A stretch of 36,535 nt of DNA from Planotetraspora mira (GTDB lineage: Bacteria > Actinomycetota > Actinomycetes > Streptosporangiales > Streptosporangiaceae). Within the stretch, counting starts at the first letter, position 1, and each line of letters opens with the position of its first letter. Below are positions 2,342 to 13,091 of the stretch, piece by piece. The notes beneath the pieces are model-generated. The model was given only the letters and a program-made list of their open reading frames with translations, was not told the DNA's origin and searched no databases. Both the position numbers and the translations under genes were made by a program. The DNA lies in the NCBI RefSeq assembly GCF_016863275.1, contig NZ_BOOO01000029.1, positions 1 through 36,535 of the forward strand. The letters run 5' to 3'.

Positions 2342-3031
2342 GTGGCGATACGGATAGTCATAGCGGAGGACTCCTTTCTCGTGCGGGAGGGCGTGCGGCG
2401 CGTGCTCGACCTGCAGGGCGACCTGGAGGTGGTGGGCACCGCCGCCGATCTGCCCCAATTGCTGGCGGCCGTGGACGAGCACGCCCCCGATGTGGTGGTG
2501 ACCGATATCCGGATGCCGCCGACCTCCACCGACGAGGGCATCCAGGCGGCCATCGGGTTCCAGTCCAGCCGTCCCGGCATGGGTGTCGTCGTGTTGTCGC
2601 AGTACGCCGAGCCCGCGTACGCCACGCCGCTGCTGGCCACCGGGAGCGCCGGGCGGGCCTATCTGCTCAAGGAGCGGGTCGGCGATCCACAGGTGCTGAT
2701 CCAGGCGGTCCGCACGGTGGCGGCCGGGGGCTCGGTCATCGACCCGGCCGTCGTCGAAGCGCTGGTCACGGACTCGATCCGTGCCAAAACCTCCCCCCTC
2801 GCCGGGCTGACCGCCAGGGAGCGCGACGTGCTGGCCCAGATCGCGCAGGGCAGGAGCAACGCGGCCGTCGGGGCGGCGCTCTTCCTGACCGAGCGCGCCG
2901 TGGAGAAGCACATCAACGCGTTGTTCGCGAAGCTGGGGCTCGGCGCCGAACCGGATGTCAACCGCCGGGTGATGGCCGTCCTGCTGTATCTGTCCGCCCA
3001 AAAGGGTGGTGCTAGCACCCCGAAAATGTAG
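2342..3031 (+). CDS. NarL/FixJ-type response regulator
   Basis: 229 aa. Receiver domain (about 1-120) with the acidic pair E9/D10, phospho-acceptor D55 in VVVTDIRMPP and conserved K110 in AYLLKERV. A LuxR-type HTH follows in the last ~65 residues (LTARERDVLAQIAQGRSN ... LTERAVEKHINALFAKL). A cytoplasmic DNA-binding regulator, controlled by phosphorylation from a HisKA_3 kinase. Its receiver is visibly related to that of the cyclase protein at 9859-11184: both have the DIRMPPT..DEGI and GGSxIDP blocks. The histidine kinase at 4854-6758 is of the right class to be a shared partner, but the pairing is inferred. It probably has a leaderless mRNA. Confidence 0.93.
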   Translation: MAIRIVIAEDSFLVREGVRRVLDLQGDLEVVGTAADLPQLLAAVDEHAPDVVVTDIRMPPTSTDEGIQAAIGFQSSRPGMGVVVLSQYAEPAYATPLLATGSAGRAYLLKERVGDPQVLIQAVRTVAAGGSVIDPAVVEALVTDSIRAKTSPLAGLTARERDVLAQIAQGRSNAAVGAALFLTERAVEKHINALFAKLGLGAEPDVNRRVMAVLLYLSAQKGGASTPKM

Positions 3032-3034: not shown

Positions 3035-3101
3035 CCGCAACCTTGGTCGTCTCTGCCCTTTCGGGCAGGCTGAAGCCATGACCGCTAAGGAGGCGTCGCA
3101 C

Positions 3102-3452
3102 GTGGACGTGCTCATCGTCGACGACCAGGCGCCCTTCCGCTCCGTCGCGCGCGCCCTCGTGCGTCTCCTGCCGGGATGGCGCGTCGTCGGCGAGGCGGAG
3201 AGCGGCGAGGACGCCTACGAGCAGGCGGCGCTCGCCCACCCGACGATGATCCTCATGGACATCAACCTGCCCGGCATCAACGGGATCGAGGCCACGCGCC
3301 GGATTCTCGCGAGGGCGCCGGAGACCAAGATCGTCCTGGTTTCCACCTACGCCGCCGACGACCTGCCCCCCGACGCGGCGACCTGTGGGGCGCTCACCTA
3401 CATCCGCAAGGACGACCTCACACCCGCGCTGCTGCGCGCTCTTCCCGTCTGA
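3102..3452 (+). CDS. Single-domain response regulator (CheY-like receiver)
   Basis: 116 aa from the GTG at 3102, which has AAGGAGG at 3087-3093 eight bases away; this is better than the in-frame ATG at 3078. It is only a receiver domain, with D7/D8, phospho-acceptor D53 in ILMDINLPG and the Lys of YIRKDDL near the C-terminus. There is no output domain, so it would act by protein-protein contact or as a phosphate sink. Its 3' end overlaps the convergent oxidoreductase gene by 35 bases. The gene order (regulator, regulator, then kinase operon on the opposite strand) suggests a shared phosphorelay, which is inference. Confidence 0.9.
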   Translation: MDVLIVDDQAPFRSVARALVRLLPGWRVVGEAESGEDAYEQAALAHPTMILMDINLPGINGIEATRRILARAPETKIVLVSTYAADDLPPDAATCGALTYIRKDDLTPALLRALPV

Positions 3453-4857
3453 GCGCCAGCCGCGCCGCCTGCAGTCCCCCCATGCCGTGTACGGATGGTC
3501 CGGGCGGAGTGCTGGCCGAGCAGATGTAGAGGCCGTCGACCGGCGTCGCCCACGGGTGCGCCCCGTAGACGGGCCTGCCCACGAACTGCCCCGCCTGGGC
3601 GGAGCCGCCTCCGATGTCGCCGCCGACGAGGTTGGGATTGCGCCGTTCGAGCGCCGCCGGCCCCATCACGTGGCGGGCCAGCACGACGTCACGGAACCCC
3701 GGTGCGAACCGCTCGATCTGGGCCTCGATCGCCGCGCTCATGTCGACGTCGGAGCCGTTCGGGACGTGGCAGTAGGCCCACAGGACATGCGAGCCCTTCG
3801 GGGCCCGGCTCGGATCGGCCACGCCGGGCTGGACGGTCAGCACGTACGGCCGGTCCGGATGTCTTCCGCGCGCCACGTCGGCCTCGCTCCGGGCGATCTC
3901 CTCCATGGTGCCGCCCAGATGGACCGTCCCCGCGGACGCGACCGAGGGGTCCCGCCACGGAACGGGGGCCGAGAGCGCCCAGTCCATCTTGAAGACGCCG
4001 GGACCGTACCGGAACCGCGTCAGGCGCCGCAGGTAGGCGGCCGGAAGCCGGTCCCCCGCGACGGCGACGACCTGGCGCGGTGTGAGGTCGAGCAGGATCG
4101 ATCGGGCGGGCGGCAACTCGTCCAGGCTCCGCACCGTGTGGCCCGTCACGACCTCGCCGCCGTGCTGGACGAGCCGGTCCACCAGTGCGTCCGCCAGCGC
4201 CTGGGAGCCTCCTCGCGCGACCGGCCAGCCGACCTGGTGGGCGAGTGCCGCCAGCAGCATGCCGTACCCGGAGGTGAGGGGGGCGCGCAGGTCGAGCATC
4301 GAGTGGGCCGCCATCCCCGCGAGCACGGCGCGCGCCTCCGGCGTGCGGAAGACCGACCGGGCCAGCCAGGTCAGCGGCAGGAGGGCCGGCACCCCGAAAC
4401 GGGCCGCGCTGAAGGGCGCCTTCGGCGGTGAGAGCGGGGCGAGCAGCGTGTCGACGAGGGGGAACCCGGCCCGCGCGGCGGCCCCCACGGTGGCCCGCCA
4501 CGCCGCCGCGTCCCGGCCGAACGACTCGGCCGTGCGCTCGGGATCGCGCTGCACCAGAGCGGCGGGCCGCCCGTCGAGCGGATGCGCGGCGGGCACCGGA
4601 GGGTGCGCCCACTCGACGCCGAGGTCGAGCCCGCGGAACGCGGGAGACGCGAGCGCCATCGCCAGGACGGTCGCGCAGACGTCGTGCCTGAACCCGGGAA
4701 GCGTCAGTTCCTCGGTGCGCAGTCCGCCCCCGCAGACGCCGGCCGCCTCGACCAGAAGCACCCGCCGGCCCGCGTCGGCCATCGTCACGGCGGCCATCAG
4801 CCCGTTCGGGCCGGAGCCGACCACGACCGCGTCGAACTCTGCATCAAACCCACTCAT
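3418..4857 (-). CDS. FAD-dependent oxidoreductase, phytoene desaturase-like
   Basis: 479 aa. N-terminal Rossmann FAD-binding motif VVVGSGPNGLMAA (GxGxxG) followed by the acidic LLVEAA strand end and a GGGLRTEELTLPGF segment. The C-terminal PVDGLYICSASTPPGPSVHGM block is the second FAD contact of the phytoene-desaturase/PYROXD2-like amine-oxidase superfamily. Full length for that family. It probably oxidises or desaturates a lipid-like substrate; the substrate is unknown and no carotenoid genes are nearby. Its ATG overlaps the stop of the histidine kinase (ATGA), so it is the last gene of the five-gene leftward operon and translationally coupled to a sensor, an unusual pairing. Its end overlaps the convergent response regulator by 35 bases. 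Confidence 0.88.
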   Translation of the reverse strand: MSGFDAEFDAVVVGSGPNGLMAAVTMADAGRRVLLVEAAGVCGGGLRTEELTLPGFRHDVCATVLAMALASPAFRGLDLGVEWAHPPVPAAHPLDGRPAALVQRDPERTAESFGRDAAAWRATVGAAARAGFPLVDTLLAPLSPPKAPFSAARFGVPALLPLTWLARSVFRTPEARAVLAGMAAHSMLDLRAPLTSGYGMLLAALAHQVGWPVARGGSQALADALVDRLVQHGGEVVTGHTVRSLDELPPARSILLDLTPRQVVAVAGDRLPAAYLRRLTRFRYGPGVFKMDWALSAPVPWRDPSVASAGTVHLGGTMEEIARSEADVARGRHPDRPYVLTVQPGVADPSRAPKGSHVLWAYCHVPNGSDVDMSAAIEAQIERFAPGFRDVVLARHVMGPAALERRNPNLVGGDIGGGSAQAGQFVGRPVYGAHPWATPVDGLYICSASTPPGPSVHGMGGLQAARLALRREERAAARV

Positions 4858-6758
4858 ACCGATATTTCCCCGCTTATCGTTGTCCCCGCCCCCGGGTCCG
4901 ATTCGACGCGCAAGCGCCCGCCGATCGCGCCCAGGCGGTCGGTCATGTTGACGAACCCGTGGCCGTGCCCGCCCCCGGTGTCGAACCCCGCGCCGTCGTC
5001 GCTGACCGCGAACCTCAGCAGGTCGCCGTCCATGTGGATGCGCACCTCGATGGAGGCGTCCGGCCCGGCGTACTTGCCCGCGTTCTGGATCGCCTCGAGG
5101 CAGCAGAAGTAGACGGCGGCCTCGACCTGCTCGGAGAAGCGGCGCGGCAGGTCCACGTCGACCTCGTACGGCAGGGCCACCCGCCGGGTGATCGACCGCA
5201 GGGCCTCCCCGAGGCCGTGGTCGCGCAGCAGGGGCGGATAGATGCCGTGCGCCAGTTCGCGGAAGGCCGCGTTGGTGCTCTGCACGTCGGCCCGCAACTC
5301 CTCCAGCATCTCGGCGGCGAGGGCCGGGTCCTCCTTGAGGAGCTCGCCCGCCAGCCCCAGTTTCACCGAGAGCGCGACGAGATGTTGCTGGGCGCCGTCG
5401 TGCAGGTCGCGCTCGATGGCGCGGCGAGAGGCGTCGGCGGCGGTGACGATCCGCAACCGCGACGCCTGGAGTTCCTCGTTGCGCTGGCGCAACTCCTCCA
5501 GCGACGCCTGGAGCGCCGAGTCGAGGCGCATGTTGTGCAGCGCGAGGCCGACCTGCCGGGCGAGCTCGATGAGCACGCGGTCGTCCTCGTCGGAGTACTC
5601 GACGCCGTCGGCCTGCCGCCGCACCACGAGCAGGCCGAGCAGGTCTCCGAGGTGTGCCGCGGGAGCGACCCGGATCGGGGCGTCCCTGTCCTCGATCAGG
5701 GACGGCAGCCAGACCGACAACCAGGCGGGCCCGCCGATGCGGGTCCGGCCGACGACGAGACGCTCCTTCGGGTCGAGCACCAGCGCGGCGTCACCCCGCT
5801 CCGGAACGCTGACGGTCCGGTGCAGGACGCCTTCTGTGCCCACCCAGACCTCGGCTCCGGCGGGGCCGAGCGTGGCGCGCAGCGACTCCACCAGTTGCAG
5901 CAGCAACTCGTCGAACGGCACGGCACGGCTCATCCGCGCCCCGAACGACGCCAGCGCCTCCTCCGGCGTCTGCCCGCGCCGTCCGAGCAGCCCCTCCCCG
6001 AACGACACCAGCCGGAACCGGAGCGGCAGTCCCAGCCCGACGGCGGTGAGGGACGCGACCACGCTCGCGAGCAGCACGGCGCGCTCCGGCTCCGTCGGCG
6101 ACCTGGCCAGCCCGATGATCACGACCAGGTAGACGGCCACCACCAGCATCGCCAGCCCGGCGATCACGATGGACTCGACCAGCCCCCGCTCGGAGAACCG
6201 GGCGGTGAGGGACACCTGGCCGAGAAGCACGCCGACCGGCATCAGGGCCATCACGGCGAGGGCCCAGGTGAGCAGGTCGTCCGGAGTCCCGAGCAGGAGA
6301 TACGTCGCGACCAGCACGGAGTCGGCGGCCACGGTCGCCACCGCGGCCGCCGCGACCCACTGGAGCGTGCGACGCCGACCGGCGGGAGCCCGGGGGCAGC
6401 GCAACAGGACCGCGACGAGCGCGAGGGCCGAAGCCACCGCCGCCACCCCGACGACGACCGCGGACGGCGGCGTCGTCCCGCCCGCGACCATCACCGCGGT
6501 CCAGGCCGTGGCGGCGGCGAAGGCCCCCGCCGCGAAAGCCCGGCGTGTCCACGACCCGAGCACGCCGTCGGGGAGGCCGAGCCCGCAGGCGAACCAGGCG
6601 GCCACGGCGAGGGGCGTGCAGGCCGGCCAGGCCGTCGCCACCCCCTGCGCGACCGCGACCAGCAGCGCCGCGCGCGCCAGCGCCCTGCGATCGGCGGCCA
6701 CCGCACCGGCGGCGACGATCAGCCAGGCGGCGGCGACGATGGCGGAGGCTACGACCAT
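4854..6758 (-). CDS. Membrane sensor histidine kinase (NarL-partner, HisKA_3 type)
   Basis: 634 aa. The first ~250 residues form about eight hydrophobic segments separated by short loops, an integral-membrane sensor without a recognisable ligand domain. A GAF-like domain (about 285-420) and a coiled coil rich in Glu/Arg (LEELRQRNEELQASRL) lead into the HisKA_3 box ERDLHDGAQQHL with phospho-His H453. The HATPase follows, with N-box EAIQNAGKYAG and G-box DDGAGFD...GHGFVNMTDRLG. Such kinases phosphorylate NarL-type receivers; the regulators at 2342 and 3102 and the receiver-cyclase at 9859 are local candidates. It starts 24 bases after the permease stop and shares ATGA with the oxidoreductase downstream, so it belongs to the leftward operon. 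Confidence 0.93.
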   Translation of the reverse strand: MVVASAIVAAAWLIVAAGAVAADRRALARAALLVAVAQGVATAWPACTPLAVAAWFACGLGLPDGVLGSWTRRAFAAGAFAAATAWTAVMVAGGTTPPSAVVVGVAAVASALALVAVLLRCPRAPAGRRRTLQWVAAAAVATVAADSVLVATYLLLGTPDDLLTWALAVMALMPVGVLLGQVSLTARFSERGLVESIVIAGLAMLVVAVYLVVIIGLARSPTEPERAVLLASVVASLTAVGLGLPLRFRLVSFGEGLLGRRGQTPEEALASFGARMSRAVPFDELLLQLVESLRATLGPAGAEVWVGTEGVLHRTVSVPERGDAALVLDPKERLVVGRTRIGGPAWLSVWLPSLIEDRDAPIRVAPAAHLGDLLGLLVVRRQADGVEYSDEDDRVLIELARQVGLALHNMRLDSALQASLEELRQRNEELQASRLRIVTAADASRRAIERDLHDGAQQHLVALSVKLGLAGELLKEDPALAAEMLEELRADVQSTNAAFRELAHGIYPPLLRDHGLGEALRSITRRVALPYEVDVDLPRRFSEQVEAAVYFCCLEAIQNAGKYAGPDASIEVRIHMDGDLLRFAVSDDGAGFDTGGGHGHGFVNMTDRLGAIGGRLRVESDPGAGTTISGEISV

Positions 6759-6782: not shown

Positions 6783-9185
6783 CTACTCCGTCCGGAGAAC
6801 ATGGCCGATGCGAAGCCGGGCGGCGATGCGGCCCGGCCACGCGGCGAGCAGGTTGGCGAGCAGCAACGCGACCGGTGCGATCAGCAGCAACGCCCAGAAC
6901 GCGACCGGCACGAGGTAGTCGAGCGGCATGAAGTCCGCGACCAGCCGCCAGACCGTGCGGCCCAGCGCCACACCCAGTGGGACGCCGACGGCGAGTCCCA
7001 CCAGCGCGAGCAGGGTGGCCTGGGTGACCACCGCCCAGCGCGTCTGCGGACGGGTCATGCCCAGCGCGCGCAACACGGCCACCTCGTGACGGCGCCGCCG
7101 TACGGCGGTGGCCAGGGCGTGCCCGACCGCGCCCACGGCGAGCACCGCGAGGAACCCGGCCAGCACGATGGGCAGCGCCTCGACGTCACGGATCTTCCGA
7201 AGTGCCGGGAGCGGCTCGGGTGGCGCGAACCCGGGGCCGATGGCCGACAACCGGGCGGCGACGGCCTTCGGGTCCGCGCCCGGCCGCAGTGTCACGTGGG
7301 CGAGGTGGAACTTGAACGAGACGCTCGCACCCGCGAAGAGCCGGTCGTACCCGGCGGACGTGGCCCACGCGCCGTCGCTGTAGTCGTTGTGGGAGCCCGA
7401 CGGCAGGAAGCCGATCCCGGTCACCTTCATCGTCACCGGCCCGCCTCCACTCGCCAGCCGCACCTGGCCTCCGACATCCGCCTCCATCCTGCCCGCGGTC
7501 ACCGGGGCCAGCACGATCTCGTCGGCGGCGGCGGGCAGTCGTCCCTCCAGCATGACCACGGGGAACGGCCCGCCCGTGGGGGCGTAGGTGTAGGTGGTCA
7601 CCGACGTCGGTTTCGTGGTTCCGACGGATTCCGCGACCGCGATCCGGGAGTCGTTGACGGACGCGACCTGTGGATCCCCGGCGATCGCGGGAAGCAGATC
7701 CTTGACCTCTCCCATGTCCTGACCGTTGAAGCCGACATAGGCCTCCAACTGGTGGGTCTGGCCGAACCGCTCCGGAGTGGTGGCCGCGTCGTGCACCCCG
7801 GCCGAGAACGTGAACGCGGCCAGCACGCCGAGGACTCCGGCGACGGCCCCGAGCAGCGCCGGCCTCACCGGCACGGCGCTCCGTCCGCGCCCGGGCTCCA
7901 GGGCCAACCGGGCGCCGATCACCATCGGCAGCGGCAGGCCCAGCCGCGCCGCAGTGAGCGCGACCACGGACCGGCGCGAAGAACCCTCGCCCTGCCGTAT
8001 GACCAGGGCGAGTGCCGCCGCGCCGCCGGCCCCCACCACCACGAGGGCGGGGACGAGCACCCAGCCGGCCCCGAGGACCAGCCAGTCCACGTCGAATCCG
8101 GGAGCCGATTCGACCAGGGCCGCCGCTCCGATGGGCATCCACAACGAGGCGACCGCGGCCCCCGCGACACCGAGTGTCGCTCCGGCCAGCGCGGCCAGGA
8201 AGGGTGCGGCGGAAGCCAGCACGATGCCCTGACGGTTGGCCAGCCCGACGGCGCGCAGCACCTGCAGGTCGGCCGCCGTGGCGGCGGCGTACCGGGCGAC
8301 CGACTGGCCGACCAGCACGATCGCCGCGGCGAGCGCCGCCAGTCCGAACGCCATCAAGGAGACCGCCTCGAAGTGGTTCATGTCCCGGCGCGGTTGCTGG
8401 AATTTGGCGTCGAGATCCCAGACGTCGATGTCGTTGCGCCTGGACGCCGCCGCCAGCCCCTCGCGGAAGCCCTCGATGTCGGCGGTTCCGCCCTTCAGGC
8501 GCACGAGGGCGTTGATGAAACTGGCCGGCCCGATGAGGTTGTCCCGGTACCGGGTGACCAGCGCGGACGTCGGAAGCACGCCTCCCTTGCTTCCGACGTC
8601 CTCCGCGTACCATCCCGACCGCATCACGCCCACGATCGTGGCCTTGATCGCAGGACCGAGGAACGGTTCACCGGTGGCCGGGTCGTAGTCCTCGCGCTTG
8701 ATCTGTTCCTGCGCCGGGAGCCGCAGGGTCAGCTGGTCTCCGATCTTCCGGTCGTAGGACCCGAGGAACAGCGGGGAGACGAGGACCTCGTCGACGCGCG
8801 TCTGGTCGGGGAGCCGTCCGTCGAGGACGACGGGACGCTCGATGGTGCGGAGCAACTGGTCGTCGACCGGGGGGAACGCGTCCACGTGATCGGTCCAGGG
8901 GATGCCGTCGACCCCGAAGCCAGACACGGGGAACAGCGTGAGGGTCTCGACCTGCGGCAGCGCGCGGATCTTCTCCCAGTCGAATTCCGGCTGGTTGGGC
9001 AGGACGGCGATGGTGGCGGGCAGGGTCCGCGCCAGGAGCCGGTCGACCGCGGTCTCACCGCGACGGGCGCCCGCGAAGGCGGTCAGCACCGTCGTGGTGG
9101 CGAAGGCCACGAGCAGGGCGAGCACCGCCAGGGGCCGCCAGCGCCTGCGCAGTTCGATGCGCAGCCACGTGGAGATCGTCGTCAT
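6783..9185 (-). CDS. ABC transporter permease, FtsX/MacB type
   Basis: 800 aa. One N-terminal membrane helix (RWRPLAVLALLVAFATTTVL), a large extracytoplasmic region of ~220 residues, then three to four helices, a second extracytoplasmic region and a final set of helices (ILAGFL-type segment, ALVGLAVGVPLGVALG, WALLLIAPVALLLANLLAAW). This duplicated FtsX architecture is that of ABC3-type permeases that act mechanically on lipids, peptides or envelope proteins rather than forming classic import channels. The ATG overlaps the ATPase stop (ATGA). Substrate unknown; the kinase next door could be a sensor for it, as in BceAB-type modules, although this kinase is of a different class. Confidence 0.92.
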   Translation of the reverse strand: MTTISTWLRIELRRRWRPLAVLALLVAFATTTVLTAFAGARRGETAVDRLLARTLPATIAVLPNQPEFDWEKIRALPQVETLTLFPVSGFGVDGIPWTDHVDAFPPVDDQLLRTIERPVVLDGRLPDQTRVDEVLVSPLFLGSYDRKIGDQLTLRLPAQEQIKREDYDPATGEPFLGPAIKATIVGVMRSGWYAEDVGSKGGVLPTSALVTRYRDNLIGPASFINALVRLKGGTADIEGFREGLAAASRRNDIDVWDLDAKFQQPRRDMNHFEAVSLMAFGLAALAAAIVLVGQSVARYAAATAADLQVLRAVGLANRQGIVLASAAPFLAALAGATLGVAGAAVASLWMPIGAAALVESAPGFDVDWLVLGAGWVLVPALVVVGAGGAAALALVIRQGEGSSRRSVVALTAARLGLPLPMVIGARLALEPGRGRSAVPVRPALLGAVAGVLGVLAAFTFSAGVHDAATTPERFGQTHQLEAYVGFNGQDMGEVKDLLPAIAGDPQVASVNDSRIAVAESVGTTKPTSVTTYTYAPTGGPFPVVMLEGRLPAAADEIVLAPVTAGRMEADVGGQVRLASGGGPVTMKVTGIGFLPSGSHNDYSDGAWATSAGYDRLFAGASVSFKFHLAHVTLRPGADPKAVAARLSAIGPGFAPPEPLPALRKIRDVEALPIVLAGFLAVLAVGAVGHALATAVRRRRHEVAVLRALGMTRPQTRWAVVTQATLLALVGLAVGVPLGVALGRTVWRLVADFMPLDYLVPVAFWALLLIAPVALLLANLLAAWPGRIAARLRIGHVLRTE

Positions 9186-9856
9186 GGCGCGTCCACCCTG
9201 CCGTCGCGCAGCCGTACGGCCCGGCCCGCGCCCGCCGCCACGTCCGGCGAGTGCGTGACCATGATGATCGTCTGACCGTCGTCGTGGAGCCGCCGGAACA
9301 ACTCGAGGACCTCCATTCCGCCCTCACTGTCGAGCGCCCCGGTCGGCTCGTCCGCGAGCAGGAGCGTCGGCTCGTTCACCAGGGCACGGGCGATGGCCAG
9401 CCGCTGGCGCTGCCCTCCCGACAACACCGCCGGCACCTGACGGGTGCGGTCGCCGAGCCCGAGCAGGTCGAGCAGGTCACGCGCCCGGGTCTCGGCGGCC
9501 CGCCGCTTCATGCCGCCGAGAACTCCCGGCATGACGAGGTTGTCCAGCGCCGAGACGCCGTCGAGCAGGTTGAAGAACTGAAAGACGAAGCCGATGTGGT
9601 GGCGCCGGAAGCGGGCCAGCCAGTCCTCGTCGCGGCCGTCTACCCGCTCACCGGCGACCTCGACCGTGCCCTCGTCCACCGTGTCCAGCCCGGCGATGAC
9701 GTTGAGGAGGGTGGACTTGCCGCACCCTGACGGGCCCATGACGGCGACGAACTCGCCCTCGTTCACGGACAGGTCGACACCCCGGAGGGCACGGACGGGG
9801 GCGAGCTCCGCGGCGAAGGTCCGCCTGGCCCCTTTTATCTCTACAGCGGTGGGCAT
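9182..9856 (-). CDS. ABC transporter ATP-binding protein (MacB/LolD type)
   Basis: 224 aa. Walker A GPSGCGKST (41-49), Q-loop FVFQFFNLL, signature LSGGQRQRLAIARAL, Walker B LLLADEPTGALD and switch His in VTHSPD are all present. The sequence pattern and short length are those of LolD/MacB-type ATPases that drive FtsX-like permeases. ATG at 9856 is chosen because it begins a canonical N-terminus and lies two bases after the stop of the receiver-cyclase gene. The reading frame continues open upstream, but only as an overlap with the cyclase. It is coupled to the permease by a 4-base overlap. Confidence 0.95.
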   Translation of the reverse strand: MPTAVEIKGARRTFAAELAPVRALRGVDLSVNEGEFVAVMGPSGCGKSTLLNVIAGLDTVDEGTVEVAGERVDGRDEDWLARFRRHHIGFVFQFFNLLDGVSALDNLVMPGVLGGMKRRAAETRARDLLDLLGLGDRTRQVPAVLSGGQRQRLAIARALVNEPTLLLADEPTGALDSEGGMEVLELFRRLHDDGQTIIMVTHSPDVAAGAGRAVRLRDGRVDAP

Positions 9857-9858
9857 GT

Positions 9859-11184
9859 TCAGTTCACCACCAGGTGATAGGCGTTGACGGGGGTGCTTCG
9901 GCCCTTGACCGGACGCGCGCCCAGGGACTTCCACGGCCAGGCGTCGCCGCCCGCGCGCACGGTCGTCTCGGCGGCGACCGTCCCCGCGGGGCGGGCGAGG
10001 TCCTGCATCCGCTGGGCGAGGTTGACGGTGTCGCCGACGAGCGTGTACTCGACCCGCTCGTCGCTGCCGAGCAGTGCCGCCGCCACCTCCCCTGTGGACA
10101 GGCCGATGCCGAGCCAGAAGGGAGCCAGATCCTGCGCGGCCCACTCGGCGTCCAGCTCGGCCTGCCGTACGTGCATGTCACAGGCCGCCCGGATGGCGCT
10201 GCGCGCATGGTCGGGCGACGGGTCGGGCGCACCGAAGACGGCCATCACCGCGTCACCGACGTACTGCATCACGGTCCCGCCGGCGTCGAGGATCGCCCCG
10301 TTCATCGCCCTGCGGTGGGCGTTGAGCTGTCCCGCGAGGACGGCCGGGTCGGCGCTCTCCGCGATGCCCGAGTAACCGCGCACGTCGGACATGAGGACGG
10401 TGACGTTCAGGCGTTCGGTCCGATCGACCGCCCCGCGGTCCCTGCGGAGCTTGTCCGCCAGTCCGCTCGGCAGGAGCCGGGACAACGTCTCGCCCTGCTC
10501 CTCGCGGCGCAGGATCGCGGTGTGCAGCATGCGCAGCCGGCGCAGCGCGCTCTGCCGCCCCTTGCTCGCGCCGTCGGCGAGGTCGAGGAAGAGCTGCTCG
10601 ATCGCGGCGTTCACCGCCTCCGGCGTGTCTCCACTGGCCAAGGCGATCGCCTTGACCGGTCTCCCCTCGGCGACCTGGCGGAGCAGGCTCTCCTTCGCCT
10701 CGGACAGCGCGCCCTCGTCGCGGGCGGGGTCCATGAGCTCTCGCACGATCATCGGGTCGATCAGGGATCCGCCGGTGGCGACCGCGCGGATCGCCCGGCC
10801 GAGCAGCCCGGCGTCCGAAACGCGGTCCTTGAGGAGGTAGGCGTAGCCCGCCGCGCCGTCCCCCAGCAGCCGGACGGCGTACTCGGGGTCGTCGTACTGG
10901 CTGAGCACGACCGTGCCGGTTCCCGGCAGCCGCCTGCGCACCTCGCGCGCGGCCTCGATGCCCTCGTCCTGGAAGGTGGGCGGCATCCGGATGTCGGTGA
11001 CGATGACCTGCGGGCGCAGCCGCACCGCGGCCGCGACCAGTTCGTCGTAGTCGGCCGCGAGCCCCACGACCTCGAGGGCGGGGTCGCGGGCGAGCAGAGC
11101 GCGCACCCCTTCGCGGACGATGAGGTTGTCGTCCGCGAGCACCAGCGTGATCCGATCCACGAGCTGATTAGATATCGGCCGCAT
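9859..11184 (-). CDS. Receiver + degenerate LuxR-HTH + class III nucleotide cyclase
   Basis: 441 aa from the ATG at 11184 (an in-frame GTG at 11160 is an alternative). The receiver domain has D18/D19, phospho-acceptor D64 in VIVTDIRMPP and Lys in AYLLKDRV. The ~65 residues after it align with the HTH of the regulator at 2342 (GDTPEAVNAAIEQLF against LTERAVEKHINALF) but have lost the basic recognition residues, so this looks like a decayed HTH used as a linker. The class III cyclase domain follows, with metal ligands D267 (SDVRGYS) and D311 (YVGDAVMAVFG), purine-side D385 and transition-state N388 and R392 (GDTVNLAQR). The usual substrate Lys is Gln (Q307). Likely makes a cyclic nucleotide under phosphorylation control. 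First gene of the leftward operon. Confidence 0.92.
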   Translation of the reverse strand: MRPISNQLVDRITLVLADDNLIVREGVRALLARDPALEVVGLAADYDELVAAAVRLRPQVIVTDIRMPPTFQDEGIEAAREVRRRLPGTGTVVLSQYDDPEYAVRLLGDGAAGYAYLLKDRVSDAGLLGRAIRAVATGGSLIDPMIVRELMDPARDEGALSEAKESLLRQVAEGRPVKAIALASGDTPEAVNAAIEQLFLDLADGASKGRQSALRRLRMLHTAILRREEQGETLSRLLPSGLADKLRRDRGAVDRTERLNVTVLMSDVRGYSGIAESADPAVLAGQLNAHRRAMNGAILDAGGTVMQYVGDAVMAVFGAPDPSPDHARSAIRAACDMHVRQAELDAEWAAQDLAPFWLGIGLSTGEVAAALLGSDERVEYTLVGDTVNLAQRMQDLARPAGTVAAETTVRAGGDAWPWKSLGARPVKGRSTPVNAYHLVVN

Positions 11185-11279
11185 CCCCGCCAGAAAGGGT
11201 GCTGGGACGACGGATAGGGGATGCTGGCACCCCCGCACGGTGGCAGGGTGACGCCCTCGTATGAGGCGACCGCGATTCC

Positions 11280-11285
11280 TACCGT
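11280..11285 (+). promoter_or_regulatory. -10 box TACCGT for the cNMP-binding gene
   Basis: TACCGT fits TANNNT and ends seven bases before the ATG at 11293, suggesting a leaderless transcript. The 108-base divergent region (11185-11292) also contains the related strings GGGTGCTGGG (11197-11206) and ATGCTGGCACC (11221-11231), possible regulator contacts. No clear -35 element is visible. Confidence 0.45.
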
Positions 11286-11292
11286 CGAGACC

Positions 11293-12291
11293 ATGCACGT
11301 CACATCGCACATCACGTCCGTTTCCTGGATCCCGTCCGAGGCCGTCAAGGGCTACACCAAGCCGGCCTTCACGATGGGCATCGCCCACTACGACGAGCCG
11401 CCCCCCGACTCGATCGACGACCTGGCCGCCCTGCGCGCGGCCGACGCGTTCCGCTTCGCCCATCGGCTGGAGGCCTGGGCCGAGTTCGACGGCGGCGCAC
11501 TCGTGGACCACGGCGTCGACGGCGGCCTGATCATGGGGTCGACCACCGTACGGCTCGGCCCGCTCGGCGTGACCTTCGCCGCCTTCTCGCTGCCGGACCT
11601 GCGCTCCGAGCCCGAGATCGGTGACGGGTGGATCCGCTTCACCCAGACCGTCGGAGGCCGCACGGCGATGCCGCTCCCCCGGCGGAGCTCCCGCCCGCCG
11701 TACATGCGACTGCAGTCCCCGTTCGTGTGGACCACGCTGTCGCTGACGCTCCACGCCGACGGCCGGGCCGTGGGCGCGCTGAACGGCGCGAGTCCGTTCC
11801 CCCGGCACTGGGTCTACGACGCCGACGACATGCTCGCCATGAAGGCCGGCCTCACCGACTACAAGACGTGGGCGGGCCAGGAGGGAACCGAGAGCACACC
11901 CTGGGGTGACGAGGACTCGCCGGTCCTGGTCACCGCCGCGGAGACCGCCCTGGAGCGCGAGATGTCGGCGCTCATCATGCGGGGCGGCCGCAAGCCCGTG
12001 ATCCGGACGCTCGAGGCCGGGTCCGTGCTGGTCCGCCAAGGCGAGCCGGGGTCGTCGCTGTTCCTGCTCCTCGACGGGGTCCTCACCGTCGACGTGGACG
12101 GCAAGGCGCTGCCCGAACTGGGCCCCGGGGCCATCCTGGGCGAGCGCGCGGTGCTCGAAGGCGGCCTCCGTACGGCCACGCTGACCGCGACCACACCCGT
12201 CCGGGTCGCCGAGGCCTCCCCCGACGCCGTCGACCGCACCGCCCTGGCCCGCCTCGCGGAAGGCCATCGCCGAGAGGACTTGCTCGCGTGA
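11293..12291 (+). CDS. Cyclic nucleotide-binding domain protein with unknown N-terminal domain
   Basis: 332 aa. The last ~100 residues form a CRP-type cyclic-nucleotide-binding domain: AGSVLVRQGEPGSSLFLLLDGVL is split by a typical glycine turn, followed by LGPGAILGERAVLEGG, which resembles the phosphate-binding cassette (GE plus an Arg region, ..RTATL). No HTH follows, so this is not a CRP transcription factor. The first ~230 residues (for example FAHRLEAWAEFDGG, HWVYDADDMLAMKAG) are not recognised and have no membrane segments. Faces the cyclase operon across a shared divergent region and is coupled by GTGA overlap to the MBL hydrolase, which argues that it is the receptor for the cyclase product. 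That link is inference. Confidence 0.85.
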   Translation: MHVTSHITSVSWIPSEAVKGYTKPAFTMGIAHYDEPPPDSIDDLAALRAADAFRFAHRLEAWAEFDGGALVDHGVDGGLIMGSTTVRLGPLGVTFAAFSLPDLRSEPEIGDGWIRFTQTVGGRTAMPLPRRSSRPPYMRLQSPFVWTTLSLTLHADGRAVGALNGASPFPRHWVYDADDMLAMKAGLTDYKTWAGQEGTESTPWGDEDSPVLVTAAETALEREMSALIMRGGRKPVIRTLEAGSVLVRQGEPGSSLFLLLDGVLTVDVDGKALPELGPGAILGERAVLEGGLRTATLTATTPVRVAEASPDAVDRTALARLAEGHRREDLLA

Positions 12292-13091
12292 GACTCGCCC
12301 TGCTCGGCGTGCGGGGCTCGACGCCCGCGCCCGGTCCGGAGTTCGTCCGATACGGCGGGCACACCAGTTGCGTCGCCGTCCTGCCCGACGACTCCGACGT
12401 CCCCCGGCTGGTGCTCGACGCGGGCACCGGCCTGCGGGGGCTGGGCCGGCTGCTCGGCGGGACGCCGTTCCGCGGCTCGATCATGCTCACCCATCTCCAT
12501 TGGGACCATCTGCAGGGCCTGCCCTTCTGCCCCCCGATCGACCGGCCGGACGCCCGCGTCGACCTCTACCTGCCCTGTGACGGCGATCCGCGGAGGCTTC
12601 TGGCCCGGGTCATGTCGCCGCCGCACTTCCCGATCGATCCCGGGGGGCTCCGTGGGGACTGGCGGTTCCTCAGGTCGGGCGACGGCCCTGTCGAGGGGCA
12701 CACCGTTGAGGGGTACACCGTGCGGGTCGCCGAGATCGCGCACAAGGGAGGGCTGACCCACGGGATCCGGGTCGAGGGCGACGGCGTCTCCGTGGCCTAT
12801 CTTCCCGACCACTGCCCCCAGATCGAGTCGGCGGCCGCCGAGAAACTCGCGTCGGGAGTCGACCTCCTGCTCCACGACGGCCAGTACCTCTCCGCCGAGC
12901 AGGCGACCGCCGACGCGTACGGCCATGCCACCGTCGGCGACGCGGTCGCCTTCGCGCAGCGCTGTGGGGCTCGGCGGCTCGTCCTGACCCACCACGCGCC
13001 GGGCCGTACGGACGAGGACCTGGACGCTCTGGGGGCCACCGGCATTGAGCTGGCCCGGCAGGGCGACGTCATCTCCGCCGGAACGCCGTGA
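12288..13091 (+). CDS. MBL-fold metallo-hydrolase, possible cyclic-nucleotide phosphodiesterase
   Basis: 267 aa. Metallo-beta-lactamase fold of the PhnP/cyclic-phosphodiesterase-like group: N-terminal LLGVRGSTPAPG and RYGGHTSC, zinc motif HLHWDH (H69, H71, D73, H74), a further His/Asp pattern in VAYLPDH and LLLHDGQY, and a C-terminal LVLTHHAPGR. It shares GTGA with the cNMP-binding gene, so the two are translated together. Families with this GSTP/GGHTSC signature include phosphodiesterases acting on cyclic phosphates. Given its place between a cyclic-nucleotide receptor and a cyclase operon, hydrolysis of the same messenger is a reasonable inference, but the substrate is not shown by the sequence. 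Confidence 0.87.
   Translation: MRLALLGVRGSTPAPGPEFVRYGGHTSCVAVLPDDSDVPRLVLDAGTGLRGLGRLLGGTPFRGSIMLTHLHWDHLQGLPFCPPIDRPDARVDLYLPCDGDPRRLLARVMSPPHFPIDPGGLRGDWRFLRSGDGPVEGHTVEGYTVRVAEIAHKGGLTHGIRVEGDGVSVAYLPDHCPQIESAAAEKLASGVDLLLHDGQYLSAEQATADAYGHATVGDAVAFAQRCGARRLVLTHHAPGRTDEDLDALGATGIELARQGDVISAGTP

Follow-up and report, generated by a model that had tools for sequence, protein, structure and literature searches.

A stretch of 36,535 nucleotides from Planotetraspora mira (contig NZ_BOOO01000029.1; hereafter the window) carries a gene set that is probably a two-component system driving its own cyclic-mononucleotide circuit. Its central members are a receiver-cyclase (RRC), a protein with a C-terminal cyclic-nucleotide-binding domain (CNB protein), a membrane histidine kinase (HK), two further response regulators (RR2 and RR3) and an operator, GGGTGCTGGCACCC, that marks the divergent promoter between the RRC and CNB genes as well as other module promoters. 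Gene content, its conservation, the integrity of key residues, and the conservation and specificity of the operator were all observed directly. The idea of the gene set as a unit is well supported by linkage, and its mechanism is read from protein families.

In the proposed mechanism, the membrane kinase would phosphorylate the three receivers of RR2, RR3 and RRC, as suggested by linkage and receiver similarity, and the ABC/FtsX complex encoded in the same operon may be a sensor or client of the kinase. Phosphorylated RRC would then synthesize a 3',5'-cyclic nucleoside monophosphate (cNMP), which the soluble CNB protein would bind in its canonical phosphate-binding cassette, switching its N-terminal beta-rich domain, while an MBL-fold hydrolase (MBL) would hydrolyze the messenger and reset the circuit. 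RR2 would bind the operator in the divergent and other module promoters, resulting in autoregulated expression. Phosphotransfer, messenger synthesis, binding, hydrolysis and the RR2-operator contact are steps that we infer.

Gene organization

The window is part of a 9.03-Mb genome; of the named relatives fetched, Planotetraspora spp. are the closest (99, 92 and 91% identity in the N-terminal domain of the CNB protein). Every named gene is backed by open reading frames, coding statistics and Pfam. The features are listed below with Pfam families and E-values.

9859-11184, minus strand: RRC, 441 amino acids; NarL-type receiver, degenerate LuxR-type helix-turn-helix (HTH) and class III nucleotide cyclase domain (PF00072, 2e-13; PF00211, 1e-18)
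11293-12291, plus strand: CNB protein, 332 amino acids; N-terminal domain (about 1-220) and C-terminal cyclic-nucleotide-binding domain (PF00027 at residues 238-314)
12288-13091, plus strand: MBL-fold hydrolase, proposed atypical class-II cNMP phosphodiesterase (PF12706)
4854-6758, minus strand: membrane histidine kinase with HisKA_3, HATPase_c and seven transmembrane (TM)-like stretches (PF07730, 1.2e-12; PF02518, 4e-10)
9182-9856, minus strand: ABC ATPase of the LolD/MacB/FtsE type (PF00005, 5.8e-36; NCBIfam relatives)
6783-9185, minus strand: FtsX/MacB-type permease with ten TM-like stretches (PF02687, 1.6e-15)
2342-3031, plus strand: RR2, NarL/LuxR-family response regulator, proposed operator-binding protein (PF00072 and PF00196)
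3078-3452, plus strand: RR3, stand-alone receiver domain (PF00072, 3.5e-21)
3418-4857, minus strand: CrtO/phytoene-desaturase-like FAD flavoprotein, accessory
11197-11258, no strand: operator region in the divergent promoter, with boxes at about 11197, 11219 (GGATGCTGGCACCCCC) and 11241 (motif model from 39 intergenic regions)
3004-3021, no strand: GGTGCTAGCACC, a palindromic operator at the junction of RR2 and RR3 that falls within the RR2 3' end

The genes for RRC, ABC ATPase, FtsX permease, kinase and flavoprotein form a tight minus-strand operon, with a 2-nt gap between the first two and ATGA overlaps between ABC ATPase and permease and between kinase and flavoprotein; RR2 and RR3 face the end of this operon. 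An earlier note on this DNA, made from the sequence alone, had described a receiver-cyclase-led overlapping operon with an FtsX-type ABC transporter, a kinase and a flavoprotein and, across a 108-base divergent region, a cNMP-binding gene coupled through GTGA to an MBL gene. This arrangement is borne out: the divergent RRC and CNB starts lie at 11184 and 11293 with 108 bases between them, the latter start is matched by the first residue of most homologues, and CNB and MBL share GTGA. All the genes that the note named are real; it overlooked RR2, RR3 and the operator, as well as the lack of any Pfam family for the N-terminal domain of the receptor.

Conservation of the gene neighborhood

Searching the named genome collection with a profile of the N-terminal domain yielded 174 relatives, of which the best 80 loci were kept; as the profile came mostly from genomes that carry the module, the frequencies given below for these top-scoring loci are biased upward. 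Gene starts in relatives are from a simple caller. Within 9 kb of the CNB gene, RRC is found in 60 of the 80 loci, MBL in 52, HK in 48 (with kinase matches above 150 bits in 43 and below it in five), ABC in 45, FtsX in 40, RR2 in 30, RR3 in 25 and the flavoprotein in 21. Among the 47 loci with at least 8 kb on both sides, the corresponding numbers are 39 for RRC, 34 for HK, 31 each for ABC and MBL, 30 for FtsX, 22 for RR2, 18 for RR3 and 13 for the flavoprotein, and five have no module gene. RRC is divergent from CNB in 57 loci and co-directional in three. RRC and HK occur together near CNB in 46 of the 80 loci (42 with kinase matches above 150 bits), RRC, HK, ABC and MBL in 31, and all six partners in 12. 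CNB and MBL are co-directional neighbors in 48 cases, 23 of them with a 4-base overlap, spacings being approximate with the caller used.

When all called neighbor genes of 112 loci (some contigs counted twice) were clustered, CNB and the module families were the only ones present in more than 15 loci. A class III cyclase domain, detected with a profile seeded from RRC, lies no more than three genes from CNB in 63 of the 80 loci (59 RRC and four others), and none of 333 genes located more than five genes away has one; one further locus has a truncated RRC. The co-location of CNB and cyclase is beyond chance. CNB genes without RRC, too, can lie one to three genes from a class III cyclase, of another family. 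One such family combines the cyclase with zinc ribbon, AAA and TPR parts (identified by Pfam on L102 and recurring at L048, L124 and L178), and another has AAA and TPR (identified by Pfam on L105 and recurring at L179 and, judged by coordinates, at L180, whose frames touch). At L185, by Pfam, and at L186 a cyclase-AAA-TPR protein adjoins MBL-CNB, and at L118 CNB is two genes from a GAF-cyclase. Gene order shifts while the set persists (L100, L103, L189 and L119), and RR3 recurs beside RR2 in relatives.

RRC and HK are present in seven of the eight named Dormiibacterota loci, in most of them alongside RR2/RR3; the remaining locus is truncated, and ABC, FtsX and MBL were not found within 9 kb of CNB in any of the eight. 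From these counts we regard HK, RRC and CNB with RR2/RR3 as the core. MBL and ABC/FtsX are common additions, not universal, and the flavoprotein is accessory. The earlier proposal that the genes stay together in related genomes is supported well beyond the genus, and MBL often adjoins CNB. ABC, FtsX and MBL, not found near CNB in these Dormiibacterota loci, and the flavoprotein, near it in 13 of 47 fully flanked loci, do not belong to the core in every lineage. No description of the gene set or its operator was found in the open-access literature searched, and the module is a new arrangement of known parts, plus one domain family without a Pfam entry.

A module-specific operator and its candidate binder

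The divergent intergenic regions share GGGTGCTGGCACCCCC. A motif model from 39 of 53 regions, with 14 near-duplicates omitted by hand, reached a log-likelihood of 466 vs. 222 ± 12 for 20 shuffles with the same seed, and in relatives weaker boxes are located 22-24 bp on either side of the main box. Scanning 100 loci (1.64 Mb) and setting aside the RRC/CNB training class, we counted 15 hits in the 100 kb that precede module genes vs. four in 1.52 Mb elsewhere; 60 column-permuted models had means of 0.9 (largest 8) and 12.5 (largest 49), respectively. At thresholds of 9.5 and 11.5 the counts were 27 vs. 9 and 14 vs. 3. Six of the 15 hits are RR2/RR3 junctions, one is the promoter of a detached MBL (L100), two are upstream of CNB with no RRC in view (L122 and L127), three are in regions that separate RRC from CNB or from another called gene (L068, L090 and L188) and three are upstream of the kinase or RR3 in clusters of sister RRCs (L171, L172 and L176). 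One of the four hits elsewhere (L060) is also an RR2/RR3 junction, whose RR3 was missed by the gene caller.

When up to one mismatch is allowed, GGRTGCTGGCACCCC has a single occurrence in the 9.03-Mb genome, at 11219, vs. seven for the reversed control. The 12-mer GGTGCTAGCACC is found in all five species searched from the genus, at the RR2 3' end in four of them and on an unchecked contig in the fifth. A genome-wide regulon was considered and rejected: across nine genomes the strict core GGTGCTRGCACC shows no over-representation relative to a reversed-pattern control and the longer site is single-copy in the genome of the window, and for these reasons no large regulon is claimed. RR2 is the candidate operator binder: E188, K189 and H190 of its recognition helix are invariant in 38 of 38 sequences, and their equivalents in RRC differ.

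The receiver-cyclase

Class III cyclases use two metal-binding Asp residues and transition-state Asn and Arg residues in catalysis. RRC, in which Pfam places Response_reg at residues 15-114 and Guanylate_cyc (PF00211) at residues 259-430, retains the corresponding D267, D311, N388 and R392, together with D64 and K119, in 68 of 68 aligned rows; six contigs are represented twice (L041/L053, L042/L054, L043/L055, L044/L066, L046/L070 and L047/L073), leaving 62 distinct ones. By domain and residues RRC is thus a class III nucleotide cyclase, and the HisKA_3 kinase and the invariant phospho-acceptors (D64 of RRC, and D55 of RR2 in 38 of 38 sequences) place the system among two-component systems of the NarL type.

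The base-selecting position of RRC is Gln307 in every row, and it is Lys in six of seven sister cyclases. Lys is given as typical of adenylyl cyclases at this position in part of PMC4886424, and by this mark RRC is not a canonical adenylyl cyclase. Because the base-selecting Lys is replaced by Gln, the messenger cannot be taken as cAMP. A genome-wide comparison gave RR2 as the closest match to RRC (48% identity over receiver and HTH), so RRC looks like an RR2-type regulator that may have gained a cyclase and lost its DNA-contacting residues.

The sister receiver-cyclases (L171-L177), most of which carry the canonical Lys, are found with kinases, RR2, RR3 or ABC/FtsX and without CNB. Operator-like sites are located near some of them, as are proteins that, judging from their sequences, we take to be universal-stress-like.

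The CNB protein and its N-terminal domain

Most copies of the CNB protein are about 330 amino acids long with the CNB domain at the C-terminus; exceptions are fragments, a copy divided over two adjacent frames (L135/L186) and a longer open frame (L146). In 83 full-length copies scanned, from which those that are not one full-length frame were omitted (e.g., L135 with its two domains in adjacent frames, the fragments L161 and L162, and L146 with a 591-residue open frame), the CNB domain was detected in all, and the cassette residues E284 and R293 were each kept in 82. With PF00027 and both cassette residues, the protein is predicted to be a CNB-domain receptor that binds its ligand. The CNB gene is split between two frames in the congener L050 (G001:C91) and in the second G018 copy, L052 (G018:C6), where either assembly frame errors or decayed genes may be involved.

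The N-terminal domain of about 220 residues belongs to no Pfam family, PF00027 being the only strong Pfam match across the 83 copies, and it has no significant sequence match in the PDB (best E-value 0.056, an antibody). Ten other families that reached an E-value of 0.1 were rejected as weak matches, the best being Cupin_2 (0.0035, in 16 of 83 members). In a confident AlphaFold2 model of the CNB protein (overall pLDDT 88.8) the domain is mostly beta; structure searches with the whole model were dominated by CNB chains and thereby do not show the N-terminal fold to be new. Its invariant or near-invariant motifs SWIPSEA, HYD.PPP and SPFPRHW might, speculatively, mark a binding or catalytic site, and the domain is presumed to be the output of the receptor. 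In a CNB cassette Thr is typical of cGMP sites, as in PKG; cGMP as the messenger, proposed from Thr294 by this analogy, was dropped, as the Thr does not co-vary with the cyclase residue.

The MBL-fold hydrolase

The MBL of the window has the motif THLHWDH and all metal ligands. HxHxDH is present in 32 of 32 rows, preceded by Thr or Ser in 20 and by Gly in 12. As described in parts of PMC9293780 and PMC9117128, Rv1339, YhfI and C. glutamicum CpdA are atypical class-II cNMP phosphodiesterases of family PF12706, with [T/S]HxHxDH as the motif of the class (PMC9293780). By family and motif the MBL is thus a putative member with putative cNMP hydrolysis. It scores below the NCBIfam RNase_Z cut-off (292.95 bits). 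The PhnP-like character first assigned to it did not prove specific, as its structure is tied between RNase Z and YhfI and its motif resembles that of the atypical class-II phosphodiesterases.

One circuit or neighboring systems

In the reverse direction, 30 of 396 genomes of the phylum contain a CNB profile match. A strong RRC match is present in 19, of which 17 also have CNB (exceptions G250 and G202), and a strong MBL match in 17, of which 15 also have CNB (exceptions G364 and G239). The strong sets were cut by eye at score gaps (RRC above 500 bits plus G287, where it is in two pieces; MBL above 320 bits, omitting a two-piece MBL in the CNB-bearing G120), and divergence and co-occurrence were counted by hand. 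Of the 17 genomes with both genes, 11 have RRC and CNB divergent at a distance of up to about 1.1 kb, and one has them about 6 kb apart. Patristic distances correlate at 0.90 for CNB-RRC (62 loci), 0.93 for RRC-MBL (46 loci) and 0.92 for RRC-ABC; with no housekeeping control alongside, these correlations show shared inheritance rather than interaction.

Several observations weigh against a single circuit, in addition to the upward bias of the 80 loci. RRC and CNB are on different contigs in the remaining five of the 17 genomes, and 13 of the 30 CNB genomes lack a strong RRC match, absences that are soft because few best candidates per genome were scored. Eight of the 80 CNB loci have at least three genes on both sides and no cyclase within three genes, and eight more end at a contig edge. 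MBL is near CNB in just 31 of 47 fully flanked loci and was not found near it in the eight Dormiibacterota loci, one of them truncated; its score against NF041851, the equivalog for cyclic nucleotide-degrading phosphodiesterases, is 39.8 bits vs. a curated cut-off of 400, and its fold is equally near RNase Z and YhfI. The CNB Thr is also present beside Lys-type cyclases, so the residues disagree on one messenger.

In one alternative, two separate systems are neighbors: a Bce-like ABC/FtsX-kinase-response regulator stress module, whose regulator is a cyclase feeding global cAMP, and a CNB-MBL pair that reads this pool. It would fit the CNB genomes without strong RRC and the presence in this genome of two further cyclase domains and eight further CNB matches (three Guanylate_cyc and nine cNMP_binding matches in total). 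It would also fit another group of RRCs, from 17 genomes (429-465 bits, two fragments lower), that has no CNB match; seven fetched regions of this group contain kinases, RR2, RR3 or ABC/FtsX and no CNB. The operator conserved in the shared divergent promoter across distant lineages, the 17/19 co-occurrence and the replacement by Gln in those RRCs that are linked to CNB are, however, the reasons for which we favor a dedicated RRC-CNB pair and consider separate systems unlikely.

A second alternative, that RRC is a DNA-binding autoregulator acting through its retained HTH, with a cyclase domain that mainly dimerizes, would account for an HTH-like region that is still well conserved (mean 0.71; receiver 0.81, cyclase domain 0.76). 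All checked catalytic residues of RRC are, however, invariant, a Pfam scan found no GerE match in it, and it lacks the Lys-His that all 38 of 38 RR2 sequences retain in the recognition helix, making this reading highly improbable. Still less probable is a Pycsar-like anti-phage defense, in which the cyclase senses infection and a CNB effector harms the cell: PADLOC PycC models match the cyclase domain (1.2e-20) and effector models the CNB part (1.1e-8), but these matches span only the shared domains, neither a TIR domain (Pfam) nor a TM-like stretch was detected in the CNB protein, no relatives of it turned up among 72,556 records of plasmids and 50,697 of phages (E-value 1e-5), a two-component system and an operator specific to the module are inherited along with the set, and a receptor-coupled hydrolase would be unexpected in an abortive system.

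Within the favored reading of a two-component system driving its own cyclic-mononucleotide circuit, a self-contained phosphorelay-to-cNMP circuit, insulated from global cAMP, is a tentative possibility. The RRC clade might have jointly acquired the Gln at its base-selecting position, a receptor of its own that carries a new output domain, and its own hydrolase; instead of plain cAMP, the messenger may be cGMP, a mixture or a pyrimidine cNMP, and the module-restricted operator might keep the circuit private.

Comparison with known systems

Response regulators with nucleotide-cyclase output are known, and RRC resembles them in fusing a receiver to a class III cyclase with intact catalytic residues. 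It differs from them in its NarL-type receiver-HTH, which is most like RR2, in the Gln that takes the place of the base-selecting Lys and in the promoter shared divergently with a putative receptor. Unlike CRP, Pat-type and PKG/PKA receptors, the CNB protein has its presumed output at the N-terminus, and this output is not a Pfam DNA-binding, kinase or acetyltransferase domain. BceAB-RS-type modules have an FtsX-type ABC transporter in an operon with a kinase and regulators, as has the module described here, which differs in its multi-TM HisKA_3 kinase, three receivers, cNMP branch and the absence of ABC/FtsX near CNB in the Dormiibacterota loci. Pycsar systems pair a cyclase with a CNB effector that has a TIR or membrane toxic domain; the module shares the cyclase and a CNB-domain protein and differs in its two-component control, hydrolase, lack of a recognizable toxic effector and lack of plasmid or phage copies among the records searched.

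If the proposal is true, two-component sensing would feed straight into a private cyclic-nucleotide signal that has a synthase, a receptor, an eraser and a promoter code to itself, and the circuit would span several actinobacterial lineages as well as Dormiibacterota. The analysis also brings to light a highly conserved domain without a Pfam family that is fused to CNB, RRC makes altered base selection by a class III cyclase accessible to testing, and the operator provides a direct handle for biochemistry.

Additional observations

Outside the window, at G000:C35:196367-197244 of the same genome, a second class III cyclase domain is located about 120 bases from another CNB domain, and two of the three cyclase matches of this genome adjoin a CNB. 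In L185 and L186, the CNB-MBL pairs run straight into the large cyclase-AAA-TPR gene, an arrangement that suggests a second, kinase-independent feed to the same receptor. The FtsX permease, a single gene in the window, is present as two tandem copies in three sister species (L041-L043), and its copy number varies among relatives. The RR3 and flavoprotein genes overlap tail to tail by about 35 bases (3418-3452 of the window).

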